Source: Syntrophomonas sp. DTU019 (GTDB lineage: Bacteria; Bacillota; Syntrophomonadia; Syntrophomonadales; Syntrophomonadaceae). Taken from it: DNA of 64,000 nucleotides. The notes beneath the pieces were generated by a model. It searched no databases. It saw only the letters and a list, made by a program, of their open reading frames with translations, and had not been told where the DNA came from. The stretch spans positions 558,001 through 622,000 of the forward strand of contig CAJYDM010000001.1 in NCBI GenBank assembly GCA_913757435.1, written 5' to 3'. The position numbers and the translations under genes are program-made. Shown in pieces: positions 19,881 to 49,012 of this stretch. The number at the start of each line of letters is the position of its first letter. The first letter of the stretch is position 1.

Positions 19881-19894
19881 GGCGTTTCCTCCCT

Positions 19895-21991: not shown

Positions 21992-21992
21992 T

Positions 21993-25257: not shown

Positions 25258-25271
25258 AACAAATACCCCCT

Positions 25272-27737: not shown

Positions 27738-29011
27738 TCATTGGCGCACCATTCCCAAGCGTTGTCCCGATATTCCCACAATCGGCGGCTCTCAATTTCG
27801 ATCGTGCGACCATCGGCAGCTCTAACAGGGCCCACCACTTCAGCAATATGATCTAATCTTCGGTGGTCGTCCTTTTGAACGACATAGATAACCAAATCTA
27901 CAATGTCTGCTATTTGTTCCAAGATTGCATCATTGGAAAGCCCCATATTTGCCATACGGATCATGTTTGGTAGACGCTTATTTAACAGATGTTCTGCATT
28001 GTTGGCGTGGCCTGTTCCAAGCGAGCCTGTATGCCCGGTCCCCATAGCCTGCAGGAGGTCAAAAGCTTCTTCCCGTCTGACTTCCCCTACTATGATTATG
28101 TCTGGGGCCATGCGGAGCGCGCTCTTGATCGCGTCTGACAATGTGAATATTCCTTTGCCTTCAATGTTGGCATCTCTTGCTTCTAGCCTTCTTACATCCG
28201 GGTGCTGAAGTTTAAGTTCTGCCGGGTCCTCGATAGTAAGGATAGAAAGAGAAGAGTCTATAAAACCTGCCAGCACATTAAGCCAGGTAGTCTTGCCAGA
28301 TGATGTCCCCCCGGCGATGAATATATTTAACCTCCGTTTGATAGCGGCTTCCAAAAATAACATCACTTCAGAGGATACTGCCCCGTTTGCAATCAATGCT
28401 GAACAATCTATGTCTTGTCTGAAGCGGCGGATGGAAATGAGTAAGCCATCAACCGCATATGGCGAGATGTGCGCCATCATACGGGAGCCGTCATGCAACC
28501 GTGCGCTAACCATTGGCTCGGCCTGGTCAATGCGTTTCCCGGTCTTGGCAATCATCCTTCTAACAAGGTCCACTCCCTGTTCGATACTGTCAAACTTTTC
28601 GGCGACTTCTATTTCTGCGCCATGTTTTTCAACTCTTATTGTTAAGCCGTTTACCTTAATCTCTGTCACATCGGGATCATTGAAGTATTTCTCTAATGGT
28701 CCGTAACCAAGAATGTCAGAGAACAATTGTTCGGTTACGCTGTTGGTGTCTATATCAAGACGAAGGTTTTTGATTTGATATTCCACGATATTGTAGAACT
28801 TGTTTTTAACCGATGGGTTACGGGCCTGTTGAGGGTCGGTTTCCGCAAGGGTCATCTGTTTTCTAGTCGCAGACTGCACCGCATCCCTTAACTGGAGGTA
28901 TAATTCGCGTGCGACTTCCTCTTTTTGGGTTTCTACTTTAGGTATTTCGATAACTTCTTCGATTAGGCGGTGTCTTACCGCAAGTGAGCTTACAAGATTA
29001 ATGTCAAGCAT
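27686..29011 (-). CDS. CpaF/TadA secretion ATPase, locus II
   Basis: About 441 residues from the ATG at 29011 (AAGGAGG, 6 nt). Classical CpaF motifs: Walker A IAGGTSSGKTTWLN, Asp box LTIEDPAELKL, Walker B PDIIIVGEVRREEAFD, His box GHTGSLGTGHANNAE. It powers the second Tad machine. The upstream TadZ-like gene overlaps its start by 8 nt. Confidence 0.93.
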   Translation of the reverse strand: MLDINLVSSLAVRHRLIEEVIEIPKVETQKEEVARELYLQLRDAVQSATRKQMTLAETDPQQARNPSVKNKFYNIVEYQIKNLRLDIDTNSVTEQLFSDILGYGPLEKYFNDPDVTEIKVNGLTIRVEKHGAEIEVAEKFDSIEQGVDLVRRMIAKTGKRIDQAEPMVSARLHDGSRMMAHISPYAVDGLLISIRRFRQDIDCSALIANGAVSSEVMLFLEAAIKRRLNIFIAGGTSSGKTTWLNVLAGFIDSSLSILTIEDPAELKLQHPDVRRLEARDANIEGKGIFTLSDAIKSALRMAPDIIIVGEVRREEAFDLLQAMGTGHTGSLGTGHANNAEHLLNKRLPNMIRMANMGLSNDAILEQIADIVDLVIYVVQKDDHRRLDHIAEVVGPVRAADGRTIEIESRRLWEYRDNAWEWCANEWRLENKLREGGWRPRY

Positions 29012-29741
29012 CGTCAACCTCCTTGAAAAGAGTTAGCATAGGGTTTTTAATAGTTCGGTCGGGAACTAAATCCCGCTTGTTTGCTGATTCTGCAATGTTT
29101 TTACTGTAGGGAATTTCTGCATCCGGCATAAAATATTTGCCTGCATCTTTGGCATTAATACTGCCCTGGTAGTTTTGCTGATTTAATATCACCCTTACTC
29201 GGTCCTCACAGCCCAATCGGTTTAGGATGTCTGCTGTTTCAACGAATGCGTCCATGTTGGGGCGGTCCGGGCGAACAACCACGCAGATTAAATCTGATAA
29301 TTGTGCTACAATCCAGCTTGGCCCGTATAGCGGGCCGAGGTTAGCCACAGTGAGAGGGCTTGTCTGTTTTAAAAAAGTAGTCGCTTTCAAGAGTAGTTTT
29401 GCATCTATCATAGAAGCATCCAATATTCTATGCGGTACTCCCGGAAATACTTTTATTCCTGAAGCGTGGACTTCGCTGGCAGTATAAATCATGTCCGGGG
29501 AGAATATGCTTTGTATGTCTAATATCGAAGCCGGGGTTTCCCTTCCAGTGGGGTATCCCATATAAGAGCGAACTTTGCTTTCAGAATTGAAGTCAATTAA
29601 GGATACGTCTTTTTTAATCCCAGCTAAAGTATGGGCGGCAAGGCAGGCTAAAGTGCTTGCCCCCGCGCCCTGCTTTACAGAAAGAAAAGAGATTAAAACT
29701 CCCTTGCCGGCTTCTTGTGGCGTGGTAGGAAACGGCAGCAT
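29004..29741 (-). CDS. CpaE/TadZ-like ParA-family protein, locus II
   Basis: About 245 residues. A ParA-type P-loop in altered form (FLSVKQGAGASTLACLAA), then VSLIDFNSESKVRSYMG and TVANLGPLYGPSWIVAQLSDLICVVV. ATG at 29741 with AGGAGGGG upstream. It overlaps cpaB upstream by 2 nt less than a codon block apart and the ATPase downstream by 8 nt, so it is tightly coupled. It likely positions the locus II pilus. Confidence 0.8.
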   Translation of the reverse strand: MLPFPTTPQEAGKGVLISFLSVKQGAGASTLACLAAHTLAGIKKDVSLIDFNSESKVRSYMGYPTGRETPASILDIQSIFSPDMIYTASEVHASGIKVFPGVPHRILDASMIDAKLLLKATTFLKQTSPLTVANLGPLYGPSWIVAQLSDLICVVVRPDRPNMDAFVETADILNRLGCEDRVRVILNQQNYQGSINAKDAGKYFMPDAEIPYSKNIAESANKRDLVPDRTIKNPMLTLFKEVDDA

Positions 29742-29742
29742 T

Positions 29743-30369
29743 TTACCCCTCCTGTTCTTCGGGTGTTTCAATATGGGTTTCGATGTTGGTTTCCGATGGC
29801 AAGGATATCGTAATTGGCTTCCCTCTTACCATCACTTCAGCAATAACTGCCGAATAGTTGTCCGGCACCGCGATAATATACTGAGCGTAATCCCCTTCGG
29901 GTACGCTTAACACGACCGCTCCTTTGACGATCTCAGCGACACCTGCAGGGGTTTCTCCAAATATATTTACAGAATCTCCTTTGCGGACCCCCAATAGGCC
30001 GTACCCAACCCCTTCGGGTAATTCTAGTGCTGTCCATCCTTCGGGGGCATAGCTTTTAAGAGAGGCCATTAAAGAGCCTTCCAGCGACAAATGTTCGCTG
30101 CGCATCATATCTCCCCGGACTATGGGGCCGTTGATGAGCGTTTTGCCGACCACATCAGAAGCAGAAGTAAAAGCGGTTAACGGAACGACCTTGGGCGGCA
30201 GTGATATAGTTGCCAGGTGTTCTTTAGAGATAACGGTACCTACTTTTATGTTTTGATTGGCTACGATTACTGAAGCCGTGGGCGACATTGATTTAATGCT
30301 GAAAAATACAATCGCTGCTGCTAGGGCGGCGATCACAACTGGAACTGCAAACATCATCTTTTTATTCAT
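29743..30369 (-). CDS. CpaB/RcpC-like SAF-domain pilus protein, locus II
   Basis: 208 residues with an N-terminal membrane helix, SAF domain (IVANQNIKVGTVISKEHLATI) and an RcpC-type part (VGYGLLGVRKGDSVNIFG). Overlaps the VKOR-like gene upstream by 8 nt. ATG with AAAGGAG. Second copy in the element; sequence is quite different from that of locus I. Confidence 0.85.
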   Translation of the reverse strand: MNKKMMFAVPVVIAALAAAIVFFSIKSMSPTASVIVANQNIKVGTVISKEHLATISLPPKVVPLTAFTSASDVVGKTLINGPIVRGDMMRSEHLSLEGSLMASLKSYAPEGWTALELPEGVGYGLLGVRKGDSVNIFGETPAGVAEIVKGAVVLSVPEGDYAQYIIAVPDNYSAVIAEVMVRGKPITISLPSETNIETHIETPEEQEG

Positions 30370-31060
30370 GCTGACTCCTTTCTAATTTTGCCGGGGTAAT
30401 TTCCTTGCCCCGGTATAATTGGTCTTTAAGCTGCAAAACGGGTACAAATTTTGTTGGAGATGTAGGTGCTGAGATAACCTCTCCGGTATAACCTTTTTCT
30501 CTTAGAATCATTTCCCCCCTTGCAAGCGAAGTGTGCGGAGTTACAACCGGCTGCCATAGCAAACCTTGCGGATCAGCTTCTATAAATTGCTGAAGTGCGT
30601 CATTACAGGAATGGCAGTCGGGAGAAAAGTACAACCGAGGCTTTTCGTTGATGGCCTGGGCTACTACTGTTTGTTGCGCTATAATCGGCGATTGGCTGAA
30701 GTCTGGCATAAGGTTAATGAGCAGTGCGACACTAACAAGGGATAATCCCAGCAGAGGGGCGATGAATGGTGTTTTGGGTTCGATGATAAACCCCATCAAT
30801 CCCCCCAGCATAAACAGCGTGGCCGCCAGGGTGCAATACGGGCAAAACACCGTAAGCGTCTGGGCCAAGAAACTGCCTGCCGCAGCAATCAGTGCTATGA
30901 TAGCCGTCATATGATAGCGTTTTTTGTAAATACAATAGACACACGCTAGGGCCATTATTATGCCTGGGATAGTCAAAAGGCCGAAAGTGTTTATAAGTAA
31001 AACGATCAAAGTTCCAATAAAAAAGAGGGTATTAATAATACCCTCTTTTGTGACCGGCAT
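30362..31060 (-). CDS. VKOR-like membrane oxidoreductase with thioredoxin-like tail
   Basis: 232 residues. Five hydrophobic segments in the first 130, one with FCPYCTLAA, the CxxC typical of VKOR/DsbB-type quinone-linked disulfide formation. The C-terminal part has FSPDCHSCNDALQQF, a thioredoxin-like CxxC. Bacterial VKORs are often fused to a thioredoxin domain. It may oxidise cysteines of surface proteins such as the Cys-rich TadG-like protein at 32.7-33.9 kb. Coupled to the pilin gene by TAATG. The usual extra loop cysteines are not evident. Confidence 0.6.
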   Translation of the reverse strand: MPVTKEGIINTLFFIGTLIVLLINTFGLLTIPGIIMALACVYCIYKKRYHMTAIIALIAAAGSFLAQTLTVFCPYCTLAATLFMLGGLMGFIIEPKTPFIAPLLGLSLVSVALLINLMPDFSQSPIIAQQTVVAQAINEKPRLYFSPDCHSCNDALQQFIEADPQGLLWQPVVTPHTSLARGEMILREKGYTGEVISAPTSPTKFVPVLQLKDQLYRGKEITPAKLERSQHE

Positions 31061-31260
31061 TATAGGCCGCCTCCGCCGCCACTAGCGGGCTTGGCACTCT
31101 CAATTTCTTTTTGTACGTCAAAGAATTTTTCAGAGATGGTCGGCCCAAGAACAAGTAAAGCTCCTATGGCTATGACAGCAATCAGTGCGATAATAAGCCC
31201 GTACTCGACCAGCCCTTGACCGTTCTGGTTCATTAAGATGTTTTTTGTTTTTTGCAGCAT
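31060..31260 (-). CDS. flp: Flp/Fap major pilin, locus II
   Basis: 66 residues. Leader ends NQNG, with mature QGLVEYGLIIALIAVIAIGALLV, a canonical Flp pilin with E(+5) and Y(+6). The tail ends in a glycine run. Probably the main pilin of the locus II machine. Confidence 0.92.
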   Translation of the reverse strand: MLQKTKNILMNQNGQGLVEYGLIIALIAVIAIGALLVLGPTISEKFFDVQKEIESAKPASGGGGGL

Positions 31261-31273
31261 TTAGTTTCCTCCT

Positions 31274-32077
31274 TTACAGTGCGCTTAACAGCGAAACAAT
31301 TGACGGATATCCAATCGTCATCAACAACGGAATAAGCATAAAAAATGTCACCACAAAAATTAGCTTGATTGATAGCTTTCCTGCCGCCTCCATCAGTTCG
31401 TACCGTTTTGTCATGCGAATTTGGTCGGCGTATTCCTTCATTTTCTCTGCCGCCGGTGCGCCTTTAACATAAATTTGGTTTATCGCACTCACCAGAGTTC
31501 CTATTTCGGCTACATCTATGCGGTAGGCCCAATCATAAAGAGCATCGGAGAGGTTTTTCCCGGAAGCGTTTTCTTTGATTACTTTTTCTATCTCAGCTTG
31601 GTAGACCCCGCCCGTGGCGTTTCCTGCTTCATATAAAGCAGAACCGATGTCTGGCATGGAATTTAAAGCTGTAGACAGATAAGTTGCAAAGTCGTCCAGC
31701 TTGCTTTTAACTTCGGACTGTCTGGCACTAATTGTTTTGTCGAGCCTTATGTTTGGGTAAATCCATCCGATGGCAGCTCCGGGAAGCAAGAGAATGAAAG
31801 CAATGAGCGGTAAAGAGAACAGAATACTGATGACTGCCAATACTGCTAAGTATCCTGCCGCTAGAACAACTTTCATCCCATAGTGATATTCTGGCGAAAT
31901 ATCTAGCCCGGCGCGTGTGATTTTTAGCTGAATAAGGGATTTTTCTTCTTCGTTGATTATCCTTAACCCGGTTCTACACAATACCTCCTCTGTGTCAATT
32001 TTAGGTTTGAATTTTAGGTATAATGGCATACCTACTGCGGTTCCTACTAGTAAACTAGCGATTACTGCTGAGTCCAA
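31274..32077 (-). CDS. TadB/TadC-like GspF-domain protein, locus II
   Basis: 267 residues with membrane helices near 5-20, 70-110 and 240-260 and a GspF domain (LDDFATYLSTALNSMPDIGSALYEAG). A TTG start with AAGGTG 5 nt upstream. Together with the protein at 26.9-27.7 kb it supplies the two platform subunits of locus II. Confidence 0.8.
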   Translation of the reverse strand: MDSAVIASLLVGTAVGMPLYLKFKPKIDTEEVLCRTGLRIINEEEKSLIQLKITRAGLDISPEYHYGMKVVLAAGYLAVLAVISILFSLPLIAFILLLPGAAIGWIYPNIRLDKTISARQSEVKSKLDDFATYLSTALNSMPDIGSALYEAGNATGGVYQAEIEKVIKENASGKNLSDALYDWAYRIDVAEIGTLVSAINQIYVKGAPAAEKMKEYADQIRMTKRYELMEAAGKLSIKLIFVVTFFMLIPLLMTIGYPSIVSLLSAL

Positions 32078-32664: not shown

Positions 32665-33864
32665 CTAATCTTGCCAGCAGGCTTCAGCAGGGACTTTGCT
32701 CCACTTGCCATCGGACAACGGGCCATAAAGTCTGCCCTTTCCTGTGGCCTGGTCTTTTGCGTCCCGGTAAGATGAAATCCCCTGGGCGCATACGTTGGTG
32801 GTGAAGTAAAAATCATCTCCGGGCTGGTAGTCTTTTTTGAACCATTGCGGGAAAAGGCTCTTAATATGAGATGTGGCATAAACGACTACTGAAGGGTAAT
32901 AGGGGCTGTCTTTTTTGTCGTAGCCGTATACTTCTAACTTGGTGATACCTGAAGCTTCAGCATTCCCCGGCAGGTTGACATTAAAATACTGCCCTGCTGC
33001 ACCGGTGTACTGAGCATCTATTCCTGGGGTTTTTTTAAGGTTAGTGTTATACTGACGCATATTTGTTAAGGTTTCGATAAAATCCCCCGCAATAGACTTG
33101 TTTTTTATACTGTTGTAAGCATCTATGCCTTTTGCCTGCCATTGCCGACATTCCCATCCGATAGACGGATCAAAATTTGATTTAGGGCATTCATAATAGT
33201 AGCCGCCCACCCGCATCCAACTAGACAGCCAATAGTTTGAGTTGTTCAACAGGCGGTCTATGCTCTGCAAGGACAGCCCTTCCATCATGCGGCTTATCGA
33301 GTTTCGGTTATCATATGAAAAATACGGGATTATCTGTCTGGTCGTAGAAGTCAATTGTTTCTCGATATCATTGATGTTTTCTGCTTCAGTGCCCCAACTC
33401 ATAGAGTGGGTATCATACGTCAATTCTCGATTAACTAACTGATACCAACAGTCGCCACGGGAGCCTTCACACCCCCCACACCTGGGTGCGCAGTATTGCT
33501 TCCAGCCCCCATTATCAAGCAAATCGACTTCATTGCCGACTACTCTTATAGGCGGTACCATCCCGCAATCTTCACACCAGCAATAGGATTTACCGTCTTC
33601 GTCTTCTTCACATATTCTTTCGGGGCCGAGGTCTGTTATGACATTAATTGTCACATACCTATGCGTCCCACTTCCGGCCGCTGCAAGCGCGGCGGCATCG
33701 GTTGCGGTTTGCAGTTGTTCCCGGACAATCATAATGCGCCCGAATTCCACCATCCCAGCGAAAAGAATACAGATAAATAAGATAAGGAATACTCCTATTA
33801 TCAGAATATTTCCGTCCTGGTTATTAAGGATTTTCCTCCCCCCAGGGATAAATTGCTCTGGCAT
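32665..33864 (-). CDS. TadG-like cysteine-rich pseudopilin
   Basis: 399 residues. An N-terminal TadE/G segment (NNQDGNILIIGVFLILFICILFAGMVEFGRIMIVREQLQTATDAAALAAA), then a large extracellular domain with several CxxC pairs (CWCEDCG, CGGCEGSRGDCW). ATG with GGGGGTGG 6 nt upstream. Overlaps the TadE-like gene upstream by 41 nt. It probably caps or anchors the pilus; its cysteines may be oxidised by the VKOR-like protein. Confidence 0.75.
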   Translation of the reverse strand: MPEQFIPGGRKILNNQDGNILIIGVFLILFICILFAGMVEFGRIMIVREQLQTATDAAALAAAGSGTHRYVTINVITDLGPERICEEDEDGKSYCWCEDCGMVPPIRVVGNEVDLLDNGGWKQYCAPRCGGCEGSRGDCWYQLVNRELTYDTHSMSWGTEAENINDIEKQLTSTTRQIIPYFSYDNRNSISRMMEGLSLQSIDRLLNNSNYWLSSWMRVGGYYYECPKSNFDPSIGWECRQWQAKGIDAYNSIKNKSIAGDFIETLTNMRQYNTNLKKTPGIDAQYTGAAGQYFNVNLPGNAEASGITKLEVYGYDKKDSPYYPSVVVYATSHIKSLFPQWFKKDYQPGDDFYFTTNVCAQGISSYRDAKDQATGKGRLYGPLSDGKWSKVPAEACWQD

Positions 33865-34210
33865 TTAAGTCCACCCCCCCGTAACCTGTTTTGTTTAAGA
33901 AAGAAAAATGCTTGTGAGAATAAAAGACTTCAAAGACTATGTTGTTGTTATTAGGATAAGGATGTACTGTTGGCTTGTTTGTAGCAAAATACTGCTGTAT
34001 GCAGTCCTCGGCCATATTCCTCCCGGCATCAAGGTTGTTTGTAATGGCAGCCTCCCTCGCGCCTTCGCGGGCAACCTTGTGAATGTAAATATCAGCCCGA
34101 ACTATGTTGATAACCTCTACCGCGCACAACATCAGAACTACCAATATTAAACAAGTGAAGACCAACTCGATCATTATGGAGCCTTTCTCGGATTTAAAAA
34201 GTTTTTGCAT
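33824..34210 (-). CDS. TadE-like pseudopilin, locus II
   Basis: About 128 residues from the ATG at 34210 (GGAGGGGG upstream). Leader SEKG then SIMIELVFTCLILVVLMLCAVEV with E(+5). A soluble tail follows. Minor pilin candidate. Confidence 0.78.
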   Translation of the reverse strand: MQKLFKSEKGSIMIELVFTCLILVVLMLCAVEVINIVRADIYIHKVAREGAREAAITNNLDAGRNMAEDCIQQYFATNKPTVHPYPNNNNIVFEVFYSHKHFSFLNKTGYGGVDLNARAIYPWGEENP

Positions 34211-34220
34211 GACCCCCTCC

Positions 34221-34625
34221 TTACTTTTTGCCGATGTATTTTTCCGGGTAGCGGATATAATATTCCATCGTGGCCTGCGAATACTTCGATATTGCAGGCA
34301 TCTTAAAAACAAACAAATCCTCAATCCTGGGAATGGCTGTGACTACTGCTGTTGCTTTGTCGCCTTCTCTGGAAATGCTTATCTGCGTGTCTTTGATGAA
34401 AATATATCCCCATCTATCCATATAGGTTTTCCCGAAAGTTTCGGCTCTTTCTTTGTTTTCTGTGACTGCGTATTTCCTGGCTGTCTCATGGGCTATTTCC
34501 TGTGTCAGGAAACTTGCCGTTCCCCAGTAAGTAGAACCTATAAGACCGAAGCAGAACAAAAATAAGATAATGATTGATATGCTAAATTCTATGATTGCCT
34601 GGCCTTTCTGGTTTTTGAGTATCAT
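34221..34625 (-). CDS. TadE-like pseudopilin, first gene of Tad locus II
   Basis: 134 residues. NQKG then QAIIEFSISIIILFLFCFGLIG, with E(+5)F(+6), and a short soluble tail ending YYIRYPEKYIGKK. It follows a terminator, so the locus II operon probably starts here. Confidence 0.8.
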   Translation of the reverse strand: MILKNQKGQAIIEFSISIIILFLFCFGLIGSTYWGTASFLTQEIAHETARKYAVTENKERAETFGKTYMDRWGYIFIKDTQISISREGDKATAVVTAIPRIEDLFVFKMPAISKYSQATMEYYIRYPEKYIGKK

Positions 34626-37988: not shown

Positions 37989-38013
37989 GAAAAATTCCTC
38001 CTTGTAGTATTAA

Positions 38014-38040: not shown

Positions 38041-38072
38041 AAAGTTTGCTCCCACAAGACTTCCTGTGGCTT

Positions 38073-38726: not shown

Positions 38727-39056
38727 TTAACTAACGGGCTTAGCTTCTCTCTGCGCCGTGATGGCTAACTCTCCCCAAGTTAAATTAGGATTGTTCCGCA
38801 GGGATTCCTGGAAATACTGTTCCCGTTCGAGGGTTCCCAACAAATCAGTCTTTCCTACATAGGTGGTCATGTAGGCATGAAATACCCGAAGCGCGTTCCC
38901 ATGATCTGCTACTCTATCCGTCCCCGGAGGCCACTGGCGTTGAGGCTGGCTTACTTCCGGTGATTCAACGGCGACTATTCTAATGGGCAGCTTGGTATAC
39001 AGATAACCTATGCCTAAGCATATCGCGACAATAATTAACTGAATGTTTACATCCAC
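38727..39056 (-). CDS. Small membrane-anchored protein
   Basis: About 109 residues from the GTG at 39056 (GGAGGAAC upstream). One N-terminal helix (IQLIIVAICLGIGYLYTKLPI), then a soluble helical part with ALRVFHAYMTTYVGKTDLLG. Overlaps no conserved domain I know. The gene overlaps or abuts the end of the GGDEF fusion gene and is likely in its operon. Confidence 0.5.
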   Translation of the reverse strand: MDVNIQLIIVAICLGIGYLYTKLPIRIVAVESPEVSQPQRQWPPGTDRVADHGNALRVFHAYMTTYVGKTDLLGTLEREQYFQESLRNNPNLTWGELAITAQREAKPVS

Positions 39057-39078
39057 GATTGTTCCTCCTTTCTTGTTT

Positions 39079-41403
39079 CTAACCGAACCTCTGCGATGCT
39101 TCGCTGGTTCGGCCAATAATGTATCCGTTGTTTGCTTTTTTTAATGCTGGACCCTCCGAAGGGTTTACTACTGCCACATTGGGGCCGCCGTAGGTCTTTA
39201 ACCACTGTTGGGTGAGTTGGTCGGAAGCATCCCCTTCGCGGGCTAAGACTAATATGCCTTCATCTCTGGCTACCCGAGAACACATATCTAAACTCGAGGC
39301 ACAGTCGATGATAACCAATGAAAAACGACTCTTGATTTGATCTGCAAGGTTTTTGGCATCAGATAATGTGTTGACATACTTATAGGGGTCAATAGGCCAC
39401 ACCATAACCCCGTTGTGTTCTATGGGAGCCTGACCTCCTGGAAATCTCCAATCTGAAACCACTAACTTTTCAGGAGGGATTCCTAACGATACTGCCGCCA
39501 TGCTCTCCGGAGAGGCGCATACCAGCGCGGTGTTGTCTTCACATAATGCTGCGGCTATCTCTCCTGCAAGGGCAGGCCGCGACGGAGAAACGACATACAA
39601 AGCTCCGTGAATCGGTATGGTCATGCCGTGGTCGTTGCCTCTCGCGCCGGGAAGAACAGCGAGCTTGGGCTTTACAATCAGATTAACCGCTTCAGTAATA
39701 TTCTCACAGAATACTGCATCGGGTCTGATTTTCTTTGCCACCCAGTCATCTGCCGCCCCGGACGGGATCACATACAAAGGAAGGCCGGGGGCGAATTTGA
39801 CATTATTAGGGGAACTTATCGCCGCGATTGCCTCATTGGGATCGCTCGTTGCCTGCATCCTGTTGTCGTTTAACATAAAGTCGCCCAAAAGTAGAACTTT
39901 CGGCCCGGTGCTGGCGCATACCCTATTCCGGCCTTCGCTCTTAGCTTCGTAAAGCCTTTTATCGGCTTCAGCTAGCACGTTCCGGCTCTGGGGCCATTCG
40001 GCTATGCCAGCGGAATAGGTACAGGAAATTATACTGCCGTCTTCTAGTGTGATTTTTCTTGAACTCCAGTTTTTGCGGAGGCGGTCGATGACGATATAGC
40101 CCTCTTGAATCGTAGTGTCCGGCAGGCAAATAACAAATTCTTCACCGCCATACCTACACGCAATATCGCCAAAACGGAGGTTTTGCTTTAAAAAGCCCCC
40201 TAGTAAAGACAAGACCATATCTCCCGCCTGGTGTCCGTAGGTGTCGTTTACGGCCTTAAATTTATCAATGTCCAATATTACTGCCGAGTAGGGGTTTTCC
40301 CTCTCCCTCATCCATGCGGTTAAAAAATCTCTAGTGTATAACCCGGTCAGGGGGTCGGTTTCAACTTTAGACCAGAGGTGTTTCATTCTTTCTGAAAGAC
40401 TAACAGCTTCGGATATTACCTGGGAGTTTATTTTTTTCACACACCGGTCGGCTCCAGCCTTCAGGTGTTCAGTTCTCCCTCCCAGTACAAACATCGGAAC
40501 AAGAGGATACTCTCTCCGGAAGTCCTTTATAAATTTTGTCCCCCAGGAAGCTGAGATAATAATGCCGTCGGCATCCGCCGCGCCATCTTTGATCCTGTCT
40601 TTTGAAAGTTTGATGAATTCCCCATCGCGCATCTGCCCGGACTTCCCAAAGAGGTTCTTCCCGCCTGCGCCAAACAATGCTTTTCTCCCTTTTTTAAGCT
40701 GGGGGAGCTGCGGCAATTTGACTTGAAGTTTAATTTTATCTTCTATTTTGATCCCATCAAACATTAAACTAAGGATTTCTGCCATGTATGAACTATCAGG
40801 AGTCTTTGGGATTTTCTTTTCCGCGTCAGGGAAGTATGGCAAAGTAAAAACGTTTTTTGTTTGCTCCGATAATTCCCGTGCAATCTGGGACTCGGTGTAG
40901 TAGCTCTTCTTTTCGCGTGAGTTTACAACCAAAGTCCAGTCTTTGTTAGTTGGCCGGGAGTTCAGGAATTCTCTCAGCCTTACCAAGGCTTTCTCATCGC
41001 AATCGGATACTAATAAAGTAAGGTCGGCTTGGTTGATGATGGTTTCCCAGTGTTGTTGCTTATGATCAGTCCCTAAGTCAGCCACAACTAAATCGAAATC
41101 TGTTGCTGAAGAAAGTAAATCGGCTGCGTCTATGGTTTCGTGCAGCATATTAGGTTTGGGCAGTATGTATGTTCCTGCGGCGGACTTGACACAATCTTGC
41201 CATTGAAAGTCTTTATATGTTCCCAATGTGGGGTAGATATGCTGCGGGGAAACCCCGAAGACTCTTAGAGAATCTCCTACGGGGTTGTCAAAGTCAACAA
41301 AAAGAGTTTTTAGATTCTGCTGGGTGGCGGCTTCTGCAATTCCTACGGCTATGAATGTCTTGCCTGCGTCAGTCGCAGGTGATGTTATCGCTATGAGTTT
41401 CAA
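39079..41403 (-). CDS. ParA-like / GGDEF fusion protein
   Basis: 774 residues. Residues 1-230: a MinD/ParA-like domain with P-loop SPATDAGKTFIAVG and LFVDFDNPVG. 270-345: a receiver-like piece. 350-510: GGDEF domain with TDPLTGLYTRDFL and RYGGEEF; RFGD five residues before it matches the RxxD inhibitory site, so a c-di-GMP-regulated diguanylate cyclase is likely active. 515-774: a DWVAKKIRPDAVF module shared with the TadZ-like protein at 24-25 kb plus a ParA-like region lacking a P-loop. TTG start with GGAGGGGA upstream. Confidence 0.8.
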   Translation of the reverse strand: MKLIAITSPATDAGKTFIAVGIAEAATQQNLKTLFVDFDNPVGDSLRVFGVSPQHIYPTLGTYKDFQWQDCVKSAAGTYILPKPNMLHETIDAADLLSSATDFDLVVADLGTDHKQQHWETIINQADLTLLVSDCDEKALVRLREFLNSRPTNKDWTLVVNSREKKSYYTESQIARELSEQTKNVFTLPYFPDAEKKIPKTPDSSYMAEILSLMFDGIKIEDKIKLQVKLPQLPQLKKGRKALFGAGGKNLFGKSGQMRDGEFIKLSKDRIKDGAADADGIIISASWGTKFIKDFRREYPLVPMFVLGGRTEHLKAGADRCVKKINSQVISEAVSLSERMKHLWSKVETDPLTGLYTRDFLTAWMRERENPYSAVILDIDKFKAVNDTYGHQAGDMVLSLLGGFLKQNLRFGDIACRYGGEEFVICLPDTTIQEGYIVIDRLRKNWSSRKITLEDGSIISCTYSAGIAEWPQSRNVLAEADKRLYEAKSEGRNRVCASTGPKVLLLGDFMLNDNRMQATSDPNEAIAAISSPNNVKFAPGLPLYVIPSGAADDWVAKKIRPDAVFCENITEAVNLIVKPKLAVLPGARGNDHGMTIPIHGALYVVSPSRPALAGEIAAALCEDNTALVCASPESMAAVSLGIPPEKLVVSDWRFPGGQAPIEHNGVMVWPIDPYKYVNTLSDAKNLADQIKSRFSLVIIDCASSLDMCSRVARDEGILVLAREGDASDQLTQQWLKTYGGPNVAVVNPSEGPALKKANNGYIIGRTSEASQRFG

Positions 41404-41692
41404 AATCTCCCCTCCTATGTGGGTGGACGCGCGTCCGGTATTTTGGCTTGATGATTTTTGCTTTTTTCTCGTATTTGCACAACCAACAGTTACATGACAG
41501 GTTGTATTTTGAGAGTTGCCCGACAGGAAGGGGCGGAGCGGTTTTCCAAATCTCCGTGATAATCCGACCGCGCCTCTTAATATAGCGTTGTCTTTGGTGT
41601 CTGTTTTCTGTAAGGGTTTTGTGATGTCTGCGCTGTTCGCAGATCGGGCAGGTATTATTCCAAGTCTCGGAAAAACACAAAATACACTGCAT
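41369..41692 (-). CDS. Cysteine-rich zinc-ribbon-like protein
   Basis: 107 residues. MQCILCFSETWNNTCPICEQ at the start and a later CNCWLC give three CxxC-type pairs, suggesting zinc binding. The rest is basic. ATG with AAAGGAGGAATTGT upstream. It overlaps the start of the GGDEF fusion gene by 35 nt and is the first gene after leader RNA B. Possibly a nucleic-acid-binding regulator. Confidence 0.55.
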   Translation of the reverse strand: MQCILCFSETWNNTCPICEQRRHHKTLTENRHQRQRYIKRRGRIITEIWKTAPPLPVGQLSKYNLSCNCWLCKYEKKAKIIKPKYRTRVHPHRRGDFETHSDNITCD

Positions 41693-41871: not shown

Positions 41872-43032
41872 TTAGTAGTTTATATTCCCCGGCATCCCTG
41901 GGGCTTTTAACCATGTCGCGGGGTTGCAGAGTTGGCCGTTGACCTCGACCTCAAAATGTAAATGAGGCCCGGTGCTATTGCCTGTATTGCCTGAAAGACC
42001 TATTACTTGCCCCTGGCTGATATATTCCCCGGCTCGAACACCCAAGGTAGACAGATGAGCATATCTCACTATGGTTCCGTATCCATCGGCTAATACTATT
42101 AATCCTCCGTATTCGCCTGCTGGACCAGCGAAGATTACCTTTCCGTCAAATACTGCATACAGGGGGCTGTCTTCAGGACAGGCGATGTCTAATCCAGTGT
42201 GTCCGTTTTTCCATAACGGGCCTGTGCGCCCAAACTCAGCAGTAATAGGCCACTGGGGGTCACAGGGCCATGATCCGTCTGATGACGGCATTTGAAATTC
42301 GCACATAGCATCGGCTCGGGCTGCGACAGCCATTACATAATTTCTATCTCCGTTGCAATAAATGCTTAAAGCGTTATCATAATGTCCATCTTTAAGATTG
42401 GCCTGTAGCATTTTGGCTGCCGAGAAAATAGCATCAACAGGATTAAACGGGTCCGCGTATCCATCACCATCGCCATCGGTTCCATAACCGCCATATTCAG
42501 CAATATTTTCAGGATCGGTGTCATAAGGCAAATCCACATAAGGGGGCGGCAGGTTGTCTTTGTTATAAGGCGACATATCGGCAATAATACCACTTGAGTT
42601 TTTAAAGCCTTTGGGGTTTTCCCAGCCCGACCATGTGCCGGGCATAAACTGCATAAACCCTACCGCGCCCGCAGGAGAGACTATCCCTGACGGGTAAGTG
42701 CCGTTGGTTGATTCCTTCTCCGCTATAGCGGCCAAGATAGCCCAGGAGACATTATATCGCTCTTGGGCCTGCATATATATAGGAAAATACTCTCCGGTTA
42801 TCTGCATCCCGTAGCTTGTGGGTGTGCCTGCTAATTTATCAAAATCGCTGGTGAATGTGCTTGCTAAACCGACAATACCTAAAAATCCGGTAAATACCAC
42901 CAAGAGAGGGAATAGAATTATTGCTCCAATTAATGTAGAAATAAGAAGTTTAGTTTCCGGGCTAGAATCTAATGCTTTATCGAGGAGTTTTCTTTTAATA
43001 AATTCTTTTGCCAATACTGTTGTCGCGGCCAT
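41872..43032 (-). CDS. Lytic transglycosylase / M23 endopeptidase of the conjugation system
   Basis: About 386 residues from the ATG at 43032 (AAAGGAGG). One membrane helix, then an SLT-type transglycosylase (ILAAIAEKESTNG with catalytic Glu, GAVGFMQFMPGTW), then an M23 peptidase (GHTGLDIACPEDSPLYAV, NSTGPHLHFEVEV). Opens the peptidoglycan for the transfer channel, like VirB1/Orf14-type proteins. It follows the VirB6-like gene, from which a terminator separates it. Confidence 0.92.
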   Translation of the reverse strand: MAATTVLAKEFIKRKLLDKALDSSPETKLLISTLIGAIILFPLLVVFTGFLGIVGLASTFTSDFDKLAGTPTSYGMQITGEYFPIYMQAQERYNVSWAILAAIAEKESTNGTYPSGIVSPAGAVGFMQFMPGTWSGWENPKGFKNSSGIIADMSPYNKDNLPPPYVDLPYDTDPENIAEYGGYGTDGDGDGYADPFNPVDAIFSAAKMLQANLKDGHYDNALSIYCNGDRNYVMAVAARADAMCEFQMPSSDGSWPCDPQWPITAEFGRTGPLWKNGHTGLDIACPEDSPLYAVFDGKVIFAGPAGEYGGLIVLADGYGTIVRYAHLSTLGVRAGEYISQGQVIGLSGNTGNSTGPHLHFEVEVNGQLCNPATWLKAPGMPGNINY

Positions 43033-43050
43033 CAGATTACCTCCTTTCCT

Positions 43051-43079
43051 AACAAAAACCACCCTATTAAAAGGGTGGT
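43051..43079 (-). terminator. Terminator between virB6-like and hydrolase genes
   Basis: CCACCCT (43059-43065) pairs with AGGGTGG (43072-43078); TTTTTGTT follows on the minus strand. Probably reduces rather than blocks hydrolase expression. Confidence 0.75.
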
Positions 43080-43085
43080 CAATGC

Positions 43086-45257
43086 TTAACTCTCAGGTGA
43101 ATTTTTAGTTGGTGGCGGCGGTTCTTTTGTTGGTGGCTTCTTTTGTTCCGGCGTTTGGTGGGGCGGTGATGATTTTGGGATAGGAGGATTTGTCCTGAAT
43201 GAACCATCTGCTGCCCCAGGTGGTTCGTTAAAACCCCGCTTTGGAGGTTCCTGGGTCCAGAATGAATCATCTGCTGTCACAATTCCAGGGGGTTCATTGA
43301 CATCTCTCTTTGGAGGTTCCTGTGTCCAGAATGAATCATCGGTTGTCACAATCCCAGGAGGTTCGTTGAAATCTCTCTTTGGGGGTTCCTGGTTTTCGCT
43401 TCTCCAAAACGAATCATCGGCTGTCACAATCCCAGGCGGTTCATTGAAATCTCTCTTTGGAGGTCCCTGAGTCCTGGATGAATCATCTGTTGTTTTGGGC
43501 GGCTTGTTGAAATTCCGCTTTGGAGGGGGTGGATTGTTTGATAGCTGAGGGCCTTGAGAGCTTTTTGCGGAGCCTTCTTGTTTATCTTGCTGGCGATAGG
43601 TCGGGCTGGGATTGGAAGATGTTTGTGTGCTATTAATCCTATTATTCTTTCTAGCTTTTTGGATTATCCTGCCGGCCACGAATCCTTTTATAAGGCCCTT
43701 CGCATCAACCCCGTAATTATGGGGAGGTTCAAAAGATAATAGCCCAATTACTCCCTCAAAAAACCTTTTTCTGAATATTAGCGCAAGTCCCAATATAACG
43801 CTGATGAGAAAACCGCTCAACATGAAGTTGTTTTGAACAAAAGACACCTGGGTTAAAGATACTGTAGATAATAAAACAAAGCTCATGTAAAACCCGTAGA
43901 TGATTTTAGAGGCCGCAGCCCCTAACAGGTGTTTTAAATACAGTATGGTGGTCTGTATGCCTTTTTCTCCCGCCACGCCCATCAATAAAGCAAAAGGCAA
44001 GAGAATTAATAAGAACAGTAAAATAAACTGCGCCACTAGAATCGGCAGGCCGACAAAGACTGAAAACAGCAAGAATAAAAACGCCGGGATTAAGGTTAAT
44101 ATCGCTGTTCCCATGTGGAGCGTTGATGATGTCATTCCTTGGCCTACAGTATATAATACTGCGGTGTTATCAGACTCATATCGTTCCTGCGTCCCGGTTA
44201 TAGCCTGTAGCATGGATTGTCTCACATCGTTACTACTAGCCAGCCAAACAGAGTCCATATAAGATTCTTCTGGGATTCCTTTGTTTTTGAATAAAGCCTC
44301 CCAGTCCATATCAACATTTATAAGTCCGTCTGAGCCTAGCAGTTTAATGGAGAATGTCTTATTAATATCTTTATTGATTGCTGCAACCTCGCTCGGCAAG
44401 AGTTTTAGGTTATTCGGGTCCCCGCTGCCGAACATCCCGTTGGCCCAAGGCGCACCAACTGTAATGTGCCACATGGCGTTAGTAGTTTCTATTAAGCCTT
44501 GTTGTAATAAGGTAGTCTCCCCTACTAATGAGTCGATCTCAACCGCTTCGTCTTCAGGAATGTCTTTCATATAGGACGTAGCCATCAATGCCATCCCAGT
44601 AGCTTGGTTGGTAAAGTTCATTATTGCTGGGACTATTTTATCTACATTAAGAGAATAAGCGGTGATGCAGGCAATACATAATGCCGCAACTAATACCGAT
44701 GAAAAAGCTCGCATTAGCTGCGCCCTTACAAGGTGGAGAATAATAGCAATGCCTAATATTATCATCATTAGCAGCAACATAAGGGAGAATAATCCGCCGT
44801 TTTCATAAGAGGTTAACGCGCCCACTATTGTCCCTATAGATTTGAACATTCCGTCAGTAAGAAAATTGTCGAACACTAACAAGATTATGTTGTTTGCCAG
44901 CATAGCAGCGACTTTACTAAAAGAAAAGAAGATATTCGCCATTGAGTCTTGAATTGCTGTGCTTGCATCTTCCATCTTGTTTGAAAAGAAGTTCTGATCC
45001 ACCGTAGGTGCGGTGCGGAACTGATAATTGTTGGCCGGGTATCTTAACCAGATAAATTCATCGGAATCGAAGCTCTCCAGTATTATAGGCAGAGTGGAAA
45101 CCTGCACGGTTAGCGCATCTTCGATTTTGCCCTGGCGACCTACTATATAGTCGTCAGGCGGTTCATCACCGATATATTTACGCTCTGCTAATGCGAACGA
45201 AGGCAAAGAGAGCAATATGGTAAATGCAAGAATGATCGAAATTAGTTTTTTCGGCAT
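43086..45257 (-). CDS. VirB6/TrbL-like channel protein with proline-rich repeat tail
   Basis: 723 residues. Signal peptide, extracellular segment with DDYIVGRQGKIEDALTVQ, then about seven membrane helices (LMLLLMMIILGIAIILHLV, ILVAQFILLFLLILLPFALLMG). The cytoplasmic tail from about 560 has four to five repeats of PPKRDFNEPPGIVTADDSFW type, ending in a Pro/Lys-rich stretch. Resembles the VirB6/TrbL channel of Gram-positive type IV secretion systems. ATG; two nt separate it from virB4. Confidence 0.8.
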   Translation of the reverse strand: MPKKLISIILAFTILLSLPSFALAERKYIGDEPPDDYIVGRQGKIEDALTVQVSTLPIILESFDSDEFIWLRYPANNYQFRTAPTVDQNFFSNKMEDASTAIQDSMANIFFSFSKVAAMLANNIILLVFDNFLTDGMFKSIGTIVGALTSYENGGLFSLMLLLMMIILGIAIILHLVRAQLMRAFSSVLVAALCIACITAYSLNVDKIVPAIMNFTNQATGMALMATSYMKDIPEDEAVEIDSLVGETTLLQQGLIETTNAMWHITVGAPWANGMFGSGDPNNLKLLPSEVAAINKDINKTFSIKLLGSDGLINVDMDWEALFKNKGIPEESYMDSVWLASSNDVRQSMLQAITGTQERYESDNTAVLYTVGQGMTSSTLHMGTAILTLIPAFLFLLFSVFVGLPILVAQFILLFLLILLPFALLMGVAGEKGIQTTILYLKHLLGAAASKIIYGFYMSFVLLSTVSLTQVSFVQNNFMLSGFLISVILGLALIFRKRFFEGVIGLLSFEPPHNYGVDAKGLIKGFVAGRIIQKARKNNRINSTQTSSNPSPTYRQQDKQEGSAKSSQGPQLSNNPPPPKRNFNKPPKTTDDSSRTQGPPKRDFNEPPGIVTADDSFWRSENQEPPKRDFNEPPGIVTTDDSFWTQEPPKRDVNEPPGIVTADDSFWTQEPPKRGFNEPPGAADGSFRTNPPIPKSSPPHQTPEQKKPPTKEPPPPTKNSPES
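43190..43510. repeat. Imperfect repeats coding for the proline-rich tail
   Basis: Four to five in-frame copies of a unit of about 60-70 nt containing GGAGGTTCCTG on the plus strand. Confidence 0.75.
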
Positions 45258-45258: not shown

Positions 45259-47553
45259 CTACACTCCTTTCTGAATTAGTGCGTTGGGTTTAGAGTTGAA
45301 TATTTCATCAACCAGGTATTGCGGCCTCACCACTACCTGTAGCCACCCGATTCGGTTCTCGTTGTCCCTGAACAAACAAACCCCTGGCGGGAGCTTGGCG
45401 AAAGTCTCAGGAGGAACCGCTTCTTCATCAGCTCCCAACACCCGAAGTCCTGCTCTGGTTTCATCGGCTGATAAAGCCCTGAAGCAGAACACCTGGCTGC
45501 TGTTGTTGACGAAGACGGGCTTTTCTAGATCAGTTATGTTTTGGGATATTAAAACCGGGATTAGGTTGTAGGACCTCCCCACGCGGATGATTTCATCCAG
45601 CAGGCGTTCGCCTTCAGATATAGAGGCCATTACCCAGGCTTCATCAAAAATCAGCATTTTTACTGCGCTCCTGGGGAGTCCGAAGGCGGTTTCTCGTGCG
45701 ATGGCTGAGATTAAGAATATCAGGGCCAATCCCTGGCGTTCGGTTTCGGTGTATCTCGATGGGTCGGTGTTTATGGAAGGCCGGGGGATTTCTTTGATGT
45801 TGATCACCACCATGCGTTCATTGTCGCCAAAGAACCTCATGTTTTCTTTCCCAAATACCATCCTGCCGATGTCGGTTCGTTGCATTGACTCCAACAAGAA
45901 TGCGCTTTGCTGGGCTTCTTCTTTAATGGCCGCATTGGGATTATCTCTGGAGACTTCTTCTAAACATCGTATAAACCTGTTCATGTTTCTTTCCTGCCGG
46001 GGGAGTAAGTACAATCTTTCTAATGCCTGGGAAATTGCTAAAAGCCTGGCTTCTTTTCCGGTTGCGTTGAGAGCGATTACTAAGAAGTTTTGGGCTATCG
46101 ACTGTGCGGTTATTTCCACATCAGAAAATATAAAAGGATTTAACGCTATCCCCCCGCGTGGGCTTAAATCTACGACATTAACATGGTCTTTGTATAAAAG
46201 CTTAAACGGCCAGTATTCTTCTTTAGGGTCTATCGCTAAAACATATCCCCCGTTCATAAGGGTGAAGTTCGCTAATGACTTGGACAATACAGATTTCCCG
46301 CCGCCCAGGGAACCGGAGATAAGCATTGCATTGGTTTTGTTTAATTCCCTGGCAGCGCGGCCTGGCTCCCAATAGATAGGGGTGTGTCCCGACCATCCCA
46401 AAAAGAACCCCTTCGGGTCACCGGTTTCAAAAGCGAATGTCGGCCCCAGCGCGGCTATGAATCCCGGATCGCATTCAACCGTGGGAGCTGAAGGGCTTGA
46501 ACCGGGGAGAAAAGATATGAGCGATTCAAGCTGCTTTGAGGACGGCCTCACCACCCGGAAGTGCTTGGCGGTAAAACTGGACTGTAATTGTGCTATCCGG
46601 GCGTTTAGTTCTCTTAAATCAATGTGGGATACTGCCATGCAGATAGAAATGCTGGCTAATGATTTGCCGCTTTCAAGTTTTTCTGCCAGTGTGCGGCTTA
46701 CACTGAGTCCTTTTTCATCGGAAATACCGATGTCGTCCCCACCTTGCAGTGCTTCCTGGGCCTGACCCAATAATAATCTTCTTTTGGCCTCGGTCTTCTG
46801 CAAGGCCGTATGCGGGGGCAAAATGTTAAAATGTATCACAGTATCAAATGGAAATGAAAAGTCGCTCTGGAACAAGTTAAGCCCGTATTCACTGATATTC
46901 TCCGGGTAGTCTACAAAGTGGACAAAACTTTGCAGGTGCGAGTTGTTAATGTTATCAGATACTGTCAAATAGTTAACTGATTCGTTGATGACATTCCCAT
47001 CAGTAAATGCTACGATTGCCGCCGGGGTGAAAATTGTTTCTCTTTTGTCGGGCAGGGGCGGCGGCAGCGGGCCTAATCTTTGCGATGTCTTGCGTATAAT
47101 AAAATCTAAATCTTGAAAGGCGGCCCTCGTAATAGAGTATTTTCTCAGCCTGCCGAACAGTTCTTTCTCTGCCGATATGGCGTGTTCTTTTATAGAGTCT
47201 GGCAACAAAGGGCGCATGGTCATCATGGTTTTTAAGATGATGTCCCTGGAATACTGAAGGAATTCAGCCACCGTTGACACCGAAGCATTGAGGGGTAGTT
47301 CCATTAAGATGTACCTTTTCAGGACCCTGGCTCCGCTGATAATGGCTTCGTTCACCGCCTTGGTGTGATTGATCATCTCTGTTCCAAAAATGCCTTCGCT
47401 CACGCTGTTGCTGTGGAGATAACTGTTTTCGTTCATTTCAAGTTCGTTCCATAACAATAAAATCTGCCCCTGGCCGTGGAATGTGCCTAAGATTTCTTCC
47501 ATCGTGGAAACGGCTACTTTCTTGCGCTCCAGTGAGAAAAAATTATACGGCAT
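45259..47553 (-). CDS. VirB4/TraE-family conjugation ATPase
   Basis: 764 residues. Walker A GSLGGGKSVLSK near 415, YVLAIDPKEEYWP, Walker B LIFDEAWVMAS near 637, then VLISQNITDLE. VirB4 ATPases energise the type IV secretion channel. The ATG at 47553 lacks a Shine-Dalgarno; GGAGG lies at 47643-47647, followed by a short frame (47637-47563) that may couple translation. Preceded by a leader with a terminator. Confidence 0.93.
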   Translation of the reverse strand: MPYNFFSLERKKVAVSTMEEILGTFHGQGQILLLWNELEMNENSYLHSNSVSEGIFGTEMINHTKAVNEAIISGARVLKRYILMELPLNASVSTVAEFLQYSRDIILKTMMTMRPLLPDSIKEHAISAEKELFGRLRKYSITRAAFQDLDFIIRKTSQRLGPLPPPLPDKRETIFTPAAIVAFTDGNVINESVNYLTVSDNINNSHLQSFVHFVDYPENISEYGLNLFQSDFSFPFDTVIHFNILPPHTALQKTEAKRRLLLGQAQEALQGGDDIGISDEKGLSVSRTLAEKLESGKSLASISICMAVSHIDLRELNARIAQLQSSFTAKHFRVVRPSSKQLESLISFLPGSSPSAPTVECDPGFIAALGPTFAFETGDPKGFFLGWSGHTPIYWEPGRAARELNKTNAMLISGSLGGGKSVLSKSLANFTLMNGGYVLAIDPKEEYWPFKLLYKDHVNVVDLSPRGGIALNPFIFSDVEITAQSIAQNFLVIALNATGKEARLLAISQALERLYLLPRQERNMNRFIRCLEEVSRDNPNAAIKEEAQQSAFLLESMQRTDIGRMVFGKENMRFFGDNERMVVINIKEIPRPSINTDPSRYTETERQGLALIFLISAIARETAFGLPRSAVKMLIFDEAWVMASISEGERLLDEIIRVGRSYNLIPVLISQNITDLEKPVFVNNSSQVFCFRALSADETRAGLRVLGADEEAVPPETFAKLPPGVCLFRDNENRIGWLQVVVRPQYLVDEIFNSKPNALIQKGV

Positions 47554-47798: not shown

Positions 47799-48170
47799 TT
47801 AGTCTGAAAGGCTCATTGTGTCCCAGAATAATTTGAGTTTCCGGCGTTTTGGGGCAGCCCTGAATGTAAAGTCCCTATGCTGCGGGCCGATCAGGTACCT
47901 AAAAAAGTCAAACAAGAAAACTATAAATGGCCTTCCTTGCGGATCAAATTTATTGAACAGGTACGAAAGCGCGGCTGTGAATAATAGAGCAACGCCCCAA
48001 AAGGGTTGATTTAGTATTGGCGCGGTTGGTTTGGCTAGTAATGCCCCCAATGGGAGCAGCACAACAAACATAACAATCATGTCTAACGGAATCGGTCTAG
48101 GTAGCGGTTTATCACCTATGGAGTAGATTTTCCACTGGATTTTAAATAAAGATTTGTAGCTTGAGTACAT
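47799..48170 (-). CDS. TcpE-family conjugation membrane protein
   Basis: About 123 residues from the ATG overlapping the tcpC stop (TGATG). YKSLFKIQWKIYSIGDKPLPRPIPLDMIV and two helices match TcpE, an integral membrane subunit of Tn916/pCW3-type transfer systems. Confidence 0.85.
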   Translation of the reverse strand: MYSSYKSLFKIQWKIYSIGDKPLPRPIPLDMIVMFVVLLPLGALLAKPTAPILNQPFWGVALLFTAALSYLFNKFDPQGRPFIVFLFDFFRYLIGPQHRDFTFRAAPKRRKLKLFWDTMSLSD

Positions 48171-49012
48171 CAGTATGCCCCCAGTCGAATTAATTGCCAC
48201 TTATTGGTTTTTTGGGCTTCTAAAAAGATATATTGTTCCATGTCTTTTACTGCTGGATGTTCGCCGGCTTGTGTAATTGTTATTTTAAAAAGTGATTTAC
48301 CATCTTCGTATCCGGTTAGTTCACAGCTTTTAAGAACATATCCCCCCAAAGAGGGGATTTCTTCTTCAGTGTAGTTAGATAGGTCTTCTCCTCTGAAGTA
48401 CAGGTCAATCATCTGTTTACCAAAGGTAGCGAAGCCTTCGGGCGGGGTGTTGTTGCCTAGTACGGTTTCAGCCATGTTTGGATTCGTATTAGGGACCAAC
48501 ACCGGGTAACCGATAATAGCCTGGTCTTTAATAGTCACCTCTACGGTTTCTTGAGTATTTTTCCATACTGTAGCCAGTGGGGATTCCCTTTTGATAACGA
48601 GTTCTCTAGGCATCAGGTGTGCTTGGTCATCAGGGATAGTAGTGACTCTTGAGATGTTGGCTTTTAGTTTCACCCGGTATAAATCTTCTTCTTGGGATAC
48701 CTCTAATACCTCTACTGAGTTGCATTTCTGATTACTGCCTAATGTGTAACTGTCGCCCTTGCCGAAAGGTTTGAGGCGGTTTTGGTAGTCCTGCTGGTCC
48801 CCGTTATAAGTAGCCCAATTGAACACGAAGCCGCGCGCGGTTTCCGCTACAAATCTTTCGGTTTGAATTTGCACAGGCGATACTGCGCCGTCTTTTATTA
48901 ATTTAAGATTAGTGGACATAAGGCCATTGGCGCGGATCATGGTAAAAAAGCATAGAATAAGCATCCCCCAAAGGAGGGATGCTACCACTCCCCGAATGAT
49001 ATTAGAACGCAA
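48170..49012 (-). CDS. TcpC-like conjugation protein
   Basis: 280 residues: N-terminal membrane helix, then two NTF2-like domains (FVAETARGFVFNWATYNGDQQDY, FATFGKQMIDLYFRGEDLSNYT). TcpC is the Gram-positive VirB8 counterpart that anchors the channel. It begins right after the stop of the preceding gene. Confidence 0.85.
   Translation of the reverse strand: MRSNIIRGVVASLLWGMLILCFFTMIRANGLMSTNLKLIKDGAVSPVQIQTERFVAETARGFVFNWATYNGDQQDYQNRLKPFGKGDSYTLGSNQKCNSVEVLEVSQEEDLYRVKLKANISRVTTIPDDQAHLMPRELVIKRESPLATVWKNTQETVEVTIKDQAIIGYPVLVPNTNPNMAETVLGNNTPPEGFATFGKQMIDLYFRGEDLSNYTEEEIPSLGGYVLKSCELTGYEDGKSLFKITITQAGEHPAVKDMEQYIFLEAQKTNKWQLIRLGAY

Follow-up and report, generated by a model that had tools for sequence, protein, structure and literature searches.

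A MinD/ParA-like protein with a built-in, PleD-like GGDEF domain in a Tad pilus and transfer gene cluster of Syntrophomonas sp. DTU019

In Caulobacter, the dynamics of the Tad pilus are reported to be controlled by c-di-GMP, and FimX, whose GGDEF domain has been solved structurally, is described as a GGDEF-bearing regulator at the pilus pole (PMC6581867). In the cellulose secretion system, the MinD-like protein BcsQ binds BcsE, in which a receiver is joined to a GGDEF domain devoid of cyclase activity (PMC7439463), and mobile elements of the SXT/R391 type have been described to carry a diguanylate cyclase of their own (PMC10672970, PMC2791158). Here, we analyzed a 64,000-nt stretch of DNA from Syntrophomonas sp. 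DTU019 (GCA_913757435.1, contig CAJYDM010000001.1, positions 558,001-622,000 of the forward strand), referred to as a whole as the window, whose minus-strand gene at 39079..41403 encodes a protein of 774 amino acids. Its domains are, in order, a MinD/ParA domain, a degenerate receiver, a GGDEF domain, a second receiver-like domain and a second MinD/ParA-fold domain without a P-loop (ParA-REC-GGDEF-REC-pseudoParA). FimX is not known to possess ParA domains and works with type IVa pili, and to the best of our knowledge neither a ParA fusion nor a pilus hub is known for the SXT/R391-type cyclases. The initial annotation of the window protein knew of no described protein with this exact architecture; this holds for the open-access papers searched, in which titles and abstract openings yielded no description of a ParA-GGDEF-pseudoParA chain, but the architecture is not unique, as the ParA-GGDEF-pseudoParA order is also found in the genus of Moorella and in two further genomes (G393 and G259).

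Three further described systems are close to the window protein. The TadZ/CpaE proteins likewise possess a receiver-like domain followed by a MinD/ParA fold and are encoded beside Tad genes, and the solved structure 3fkq, which we take to be the TadZ protein of E. rectale, can be aligned with both C-terminal domains. However, the C-terminal P-loop of the window protein is lost, the chain is fused to a second ParA domain and a GGDEF domain, and a separate TadZ-like gene is present. With PleD-type proteins it shares a receiver immediately before an intact GGDEF domain with an I-site, and its model aligns with PleD over residues 255-494; in contrast to PleD, the receiver looks unphosphorylatable and ParA-fold domains are found on both flanks. 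With BcsE and BcsQ, too, a MinD-like protein works at a secretion machine together with a receiver-GGDEF unit that is degenerate, but they are two proteins of a cellulose system, whereas a single chain is encoded here among Tad and T4SS genes, and the GGDEF domain of BcsE is described as catalytically dead (PMC7439463) while the GGEEF and active-site motifs of the window protein are intact. We see about an even chance that the 774-aa protein serves as an assembly or positioning hub of a Tad and VirB4/Tcp-type, probably conjugative, element and carries a built-in PleD-like cyclase. A positioned cyclase is the best reading because the fusion recurs, its location at Tad/T4SS genes is fixed and the active site is intact.

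The reading frame contains no internal stop and begins with a TTG codon at position 41403, about 7 nt after the Shine-Dalgarno sequence AGGAGGGG with its clear AGGAGG. The gene is part of a tight series of minus-strand genes. Its start overlaps by 35 nt with the gene of a small Cys-rich, zinc-ribbon-like protein (41369..41692, minus strand) that has its own Shine-Dalgarno sequence, and its end overlaps by 38 nt with that of a small protein with one membrane span as judged by eye (38727..39116, minus strand), for which no relative was found in the compared loci of related genomes. The predicted model of the full-length protein is weak (pLDDT 68, pTM 0.35), which speaks against the hub reading. 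The presence of MinD/ParA, receiver-like, GGDEF and TadZ-like parts in one chain, as proposed in the initial annotation, is borne out by Pfam, by fold alignments and by the open 774-aa frame.

The N-terminal MinD/ParA-like domain (residues 1-215; 40759..41403, minus strand) carries the Walker A sequence SPATDAGKT. Pfam matched CbiA at residues 4-41 (E 1.4e-5) and, below its cut-off, AAA_31 at residues 1-72; motif, profile and model alignment all indicate a GK[ST] Walker A and a MinD/ParA fold. The signature lysine of the deviant Walker A motif (KGGxGKT) is missing, with Lys changed to Ala in the window's ATDAGKT. The model of residues 1-186 aligned with the ParA structure 3ea0 with a Z of 14.9, and a profile of the window domain and its Moorella counterpart matched FleN (5j1j, E 3.3e-9), BY-kinases and MinD among solved structures. 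The domain can probably bind ATP. The degenerate receiver that follows (residues about 255-340; 40384..40641, minus strand) was delimited by the alignment with PleD, and by inspection its beta3 does not end in a phosphoacceptor Asp; the model of the REC-GGDEF unit aligned with PleD (1w25) over 198 residues with an rmsd of 4.4 and a Z of 16.5.

The GGDEF diguanylate cyclase domain (residues 346-497; 39913..40368, minus strand) is assigned through Pfam, its motifs and the PleD-like model, with PF00990 matching residues 349-494 at an E of 1.5e-35 (122.8 bits compared to a cut-off of 23.8). An intact GGEEF and a correctly placed RxxD inhibitory site had been claimed for it before, and both are there: GGEEF occupies residues 419-423 and RFGD residues 410-413, exactly the 5-residue spacing of an I-site, while DIDKFKAVNDTYGHQAGD and LYEAKSEGRN are also present. 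In its primary structure, the domain has every motif of an active, product-inhibited cyclase. GG[DE]EF is intact in all nine fused GGDEF domains (window and eight relatives), and the metal and GTP motifs DIDxFKxxND, YGHxxGD and AKxxGRN are intact in all seven fused members tested, window included. RxxD is kept in eight of the nine, the exception being L048 with KGAD. This retention of the I-site would also suit a BcsE-like c-di-GMP receptor, in which binding at the I-site signals to the machine and catalysis is of minor importance, and a receiver-GGDEF unit beside a MinD-like partner is indeed the arrangement described for BcsE and BcsQ (PMC7439463). Yet the GGDEF domain of BcsE is degenerate while the GGEEF and the metal and substrate motifs of the window protein are complete, and we regard a receptor of this kind as distinctly unlikely.

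The C-terminal half consists of a second receiver-like domain (residues 500-577; 39673..39906, minus strand), which is 36% identical over 80 residues to the TadZ-like paralog of the window, and of the pseudo-ParA domain (residues 594-770; 39094..39624, minus strand), which combines a MinD/ParA fold with a conserved DWR motif and reads SPSRPALAGE at the position of the missing P-loop. No Pfam or NCBIfam family matched the last 270 residues, no solved structure matched the sequence of the C-terminal half with an E better than 0.28, and Foldseek alone gave no match at E <= 0.001; the assignment of the MinD/ParA fold draws on structural alignments and on the order of the Foldseek ranks. Folded alone from eight sequences, residues 500-774 yielded a model with a pLDDT of 80.8 that aligned with 1g3q (Z 12.5 over 158 residues) and 3ea0 (Z 12.4 over 156 residues). 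The structure 3fkq spans both domains (model residues 1-263; Z 10.3, 227 residues), and the rmsd of 14.1 indicates that the two domains are arranged differently with respect to each other. At the profile level, hhalign aligned the pseudo-ParA part with the TadZ-like protein with a probability of 61.5 and an E of 7.8e-5 over 74 columns. The alignments with 3fkq and with MinD/ParA chains agree with the earlier description of a TadZ-like C-terminus and refine it: as modeled, it pairs a receiver-like domain with a ParA-fold domain from which the P-loop has disappeared.

Transfer-type genes precede the 774-aa gene, and Tad genes follow it, all of them on the minus strand. The order begins with a TcpC-like gene (48170..49012; Pfam match below cut-off), a TcpE family gene (47799..48200; Pfam) and the gene of a VirB4/TcpF-like ATPase (AAA_10; 45259..47553; match to the TcpF model below cut-off). 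Next are a membrane protein gene whose product we take to be VirB6-like (43086..45257; no Pfam match, with relatives near VirB4 in G158, G420, G393 and G259), a gene for an SLT transglycosylase plus M23 peptidase, i.e., a conjugation-type wall hydrolase, which is also found immediately upstream in relatives (41872..43062), and the Cys-rich ORF. Behind the 774-aa gene and a few unrelated genes lie TadE/TadG-like pilus genes (32665..34625), a first Tad block (26883..32077, with TadC-like T2SSF at 31274, SAF/CpaB-like at 29743, CbiA-like at 29004, TadA at 27686 and TadB-like T2SSF at 26883) and the separate TadZ-like gene with an intact KGGVGKT (24190..25275). These are followed by a second Tad block (19137..22673, with CpaB-like at 21993, TadA at 20666 and TadB/TadC-like genes at 19895 and 19137), the gene of an HD-GYP phosphodiesterase (12621..13226; HD_5 E 3.1e-33, with HDIGK and HHENFDGTGYPYGL visible) and that of an actin-like protein of the ALP/ParM type (11698..12666). 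The proposed link to a pilus and transfer gene cluster stands, and it extends to relatives: in G158, G393 and G259, T4SS-like genes and SLT/M23 lie directly before the ParA-GGDEF gene and Tad genes after it. The HD-GYP gene, already reported at 12.6 kb, is conserved in one related element, that of the Syntrophomonas MAG G020, whose Tad block is colinear over some twenty genes, the last of them coding for the HD-GYP (39.5% identity) and actin-like (45.6%) proteins. G158 possesses an actin-like gene, and no HD-GYP match was found there in the 20 kb searched past the second Tad block. The HD-GYP protein of the window is likely the counter-enzyme of the fused cyclase.

The VirB4-type ATPase, TcpC/TcpE and the wall hydrolase represent conjugative-element genes (TcpC and TcpF with matches below cut-offs), and no relaxase or coupling protein was present among the window and flank ORFs scanned with Pfam; the genes likely belong to a conjugative element. 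A ParA fold and an actin-like gene of the plasmid-partition type in the same element might alternatively speak for a ParA devoted to partition of DNA or of the element, with the cyclase coupling segregation to c-di-GMP. We attach very little credence to this: the best solved matches of the N-terminus are not plasmid ParA proteins, no adjacent ParB-like gene was seen, and the gene context is Tad/T4SS.

The two TadA-type ATPases (20666-21991 and 27686-29017) are only 28% identical and each has TadB/TadC-like neighbors, which suggests that a single element possesses two motors for pili or secretion; a doubling of TadA was also seen in G020 and G158. The flank L043, which adjoins the window, encodes DNA polymerase III alpha and anaerobic ribonucleotide reductase (L043:5823-8798 and 10621-12681), a DNA methylase and a PD-(D/E)XK nuclease; the polymerase and reductase genes possibly belong to the element. 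A three-gene block at 35730-38678, presumably CARDB-like and copper-amine-oxidase-N-like genes beside a coiled-coil repeat protein, is duplicated about 54 kb away at L045:6091-8817 (G000:C1, about 648.1-650.8 kb) with 77-93% protein identity. Its coiled-coil-like protein (38073-38678) contains tandem units like SDIGTMRTDITSIQ and is shorter in the L045 copy. The gene pair at 34823-35586, which we assume to be toxin-antitoxin-like, has a 69%/61% identical pair near a short homolog in L039/L049. At L008:3279-4651, 3' of a Syntrophomonas homolog, we find what are presumably a macro-domain protein and a DarT-like protein, and these genes indicate that the slot after the homolog gene collects cargo. 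The window also holds a group II intron D1-D4-5 match (RF02004, 72.5 bits) at 1341-1504 on the minus strand and, at 55890-61922, the gene of a 2010-aa RHS-repeat protein in which a long EEPVVEEP-type repeat lies close to the N-terminus.

Fused GGDEF domains were detected in eight relatives, all from Bacillota. The ParA-GGDEF-pseudoParA order is present in three: L090:9832-12342 (G158, the genus of Moorella thermoacetica; ParA-REC-GGDEF-pseudoParA), L105:11825-13525 (G393) and L106:9499-11325 (G259, a genome in a single contig). Among the proteins compared, only that of the window unites a second receiver, an N-terminal ParA and a GGDEF domain. The DWR motif is common to the C-termini of these three and of the window, the two C-terminal profiles aligned with an hhalign probability of 95.9 (E 5.5e-9), and direct HMMER scores were 32.4, 9.2 and 12.7 bits (L090, L105 and L106) compared to a best score of 2.3 in 200 shuffled controls. 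That the four chains share both this domain order and the T4SS/Tad location supports the hub reading.

Within the order, three of the 62 other genomes searched encode near full-length relatives that start at residues 209, 252 and 229, extend to near the end and are 48-56% identical, and a fourth holds a fragment only; they belong to Syntrophomonas palmitatica, a Gelria MAG and Syntrophomonas MAGs. The N-terminus of the closest relatives (L046-L048) is receiver-like by inspection and lacks ParA, and in L046-L048, L094 and L095 the N-terminal ParA has been replaced. A 998-aa protein of Moorella thermoacetica has an N-terminus 39% identical to the window ParA and the same C-terminal domain, with receiver-like parts and no GGDEF between these ends. 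The divergent N-terminus of L046-L048 is what one might expect if chance or an assembly artefact had joined a ParA gene to a GGDEF gene, an explanation that we give virtually no weight. The single open frame has a ribosome site, the Moorella protein offers a counterpart of the N-terminus on a chain with the same C-terminal domain, and three other genomes, one of them in a single contig, show the fused order as well; because unrelated assemblies hold relatives with an identical domain order, chance or misassembly appears very unlikely as the origin of the fusion.

The GGDEF domain is absent from five of the 14 proteins compared (L050, L051, L052, L091 and L092), of which at least four are surrounded by comparable genes. 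L091:8389-10782 (G158), which has ParA domains in tandem and two GK[ST] sites but lacks a GGDEF domain, shares its genome with a ParA-GGDEF chain and thus offers a natural control for what the cyclase contributes. The N-terminal profile matched 15 genomes in a sample of 398 from the phylum; the ORFs of eight were read and the other seven contain open frames of 420-502 aa. Seven loci in genome contigs were recovered with the C-terminal profile and none with the single protein as query. The family counts exclude L049 and L096, whose ORFs are short (250 and 305 aa), and L099, a brief match within a different ORF; the L095 ORF extends past the end of its contig. A broad profile (A8) matched 237 of the 398 genomes, exceeding 300 bits for only four, its own building sequences; the remaining matches look like ordinary CpaE/MinD proteins, judged by frame length alone. 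No relative covering 80% of the query was found among plasmids (best 39% among the matches listed, over the GGDEF) or phages (best 29% among the matches listed, over the GGDEF), and the C-terminal profile found none in viral contigs.

The host genome encodes four GGDEF proteins. Since the other three carry HD-GYP in the same frame, the window protein is the only one that has no phosphodiesterase domain attached, which we count in favor of the hub reading. The host genome encodes two PilZ proteins outside the window; no PilZ domain was detected among the window ORFs scanned with Pfam, and no c-di-GMP riboswitch within the window, and these two negative results speak against the hub reading. As the only GGDEF protein of the host free of HD-GYP, the fused protein could also set the global c-di-GMP level, and this, together with the relatives devoid of a GGDEF domain, would favor a TadZ-like pilus landmark whose GGDEF can be dispensed with and, as a mere passenger, tunes the global c-di-GMP level from any location. 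We consider this unlikely, as the fused GGDEFs have stayed intact in every member across deep divergence and an HD-GYP gene is kept in two related elements.

In a GGDEF tree, the window and five further fused members form one group (90/78), while the GGDEFs of Moorella, G393 and G259 form another (96/82). Both groups fall inside a larger clade (98/97) together with L010 and L018, which are not known to be fused. The group of seven members labeled as fused, to which the GGDEFs of G393 and G259 were not assigned, needs two changes. GGDEF presence does not form one clade in the pseudo-ParA tree, which has many open forks. A single origin of the fused GGDEFs as an established fact was rejected in view of the two changes and the missing pseudo-ParA clade.

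Local c-di-GMP synthesis at a pilus machine, as considered in the initial annotation, would agree with the surrounding genes. If the protein is a positioned cyclase, its N-terminal domain would bind ATP, and its C-terminal ParA-fold domain, with the nucleotide site lost, would dock on the pilus or secretion machine, as the resemblance to TadZ suggests. Dimerisation of the flanking domains, driven by ATP or by a partner, would pair two GGDEFs; the pair would make c-di-GMP at the machine, with the I-site checking synthesis and the HD-GYP enzyme of the element removing the product, and c-di-GMP may in turn affect pili or transfer. In the families known so far, ParA and receiver domains act as modules of regulated dimerisation, and GGDEF domains require dimerisation; for these reasons the N-terminal slot may be a switch, and its occupation by either ParA or a receiver in relatives fits an input or dimerisation module. 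As the five GGDEF-less relatives indicate, the hub can do without cyclase activity. Three of the four ParA-GGDEF chains (L090, L105 and L106) no longer possess the Walker A lysine, and hence ATP control holds for some members at most; considering also the five relatives with a replaced ParA, an ATP switch is not general. The lack of the signature lysine of MinD/ParA dimers in the window protein likewise weighs against this model.

A wider proposal, possible but doubtful, is that Tad/T4SS elements of Bacillota carry a spatial c-di-GMP module of their own, comprising a tandem MinD-fold hub, an N-terminal input, either an ATP-driven ParA or, in relatives, a receiver, that dimerises the cyclase at the pilus or transfer machine, and an HD-GYP eraser, so that the element and not the host decides on the timing of attachment and transfer. 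The fused protein would be the only dedicated diguanylate cyclase of the host, and the element would therefore decide on this switching. If true, there would be a direct link between c-di-GMP and the pilus and transfer machines of a mobile element, and since the cyclase comes with a positioning ATPase fold of its own, the concept of local c-di-GMP pools could be put to the test in a single polypeptide. It would also suggest that a ParA fold and a receiver can stand in for each other as inputs of a cyclase.
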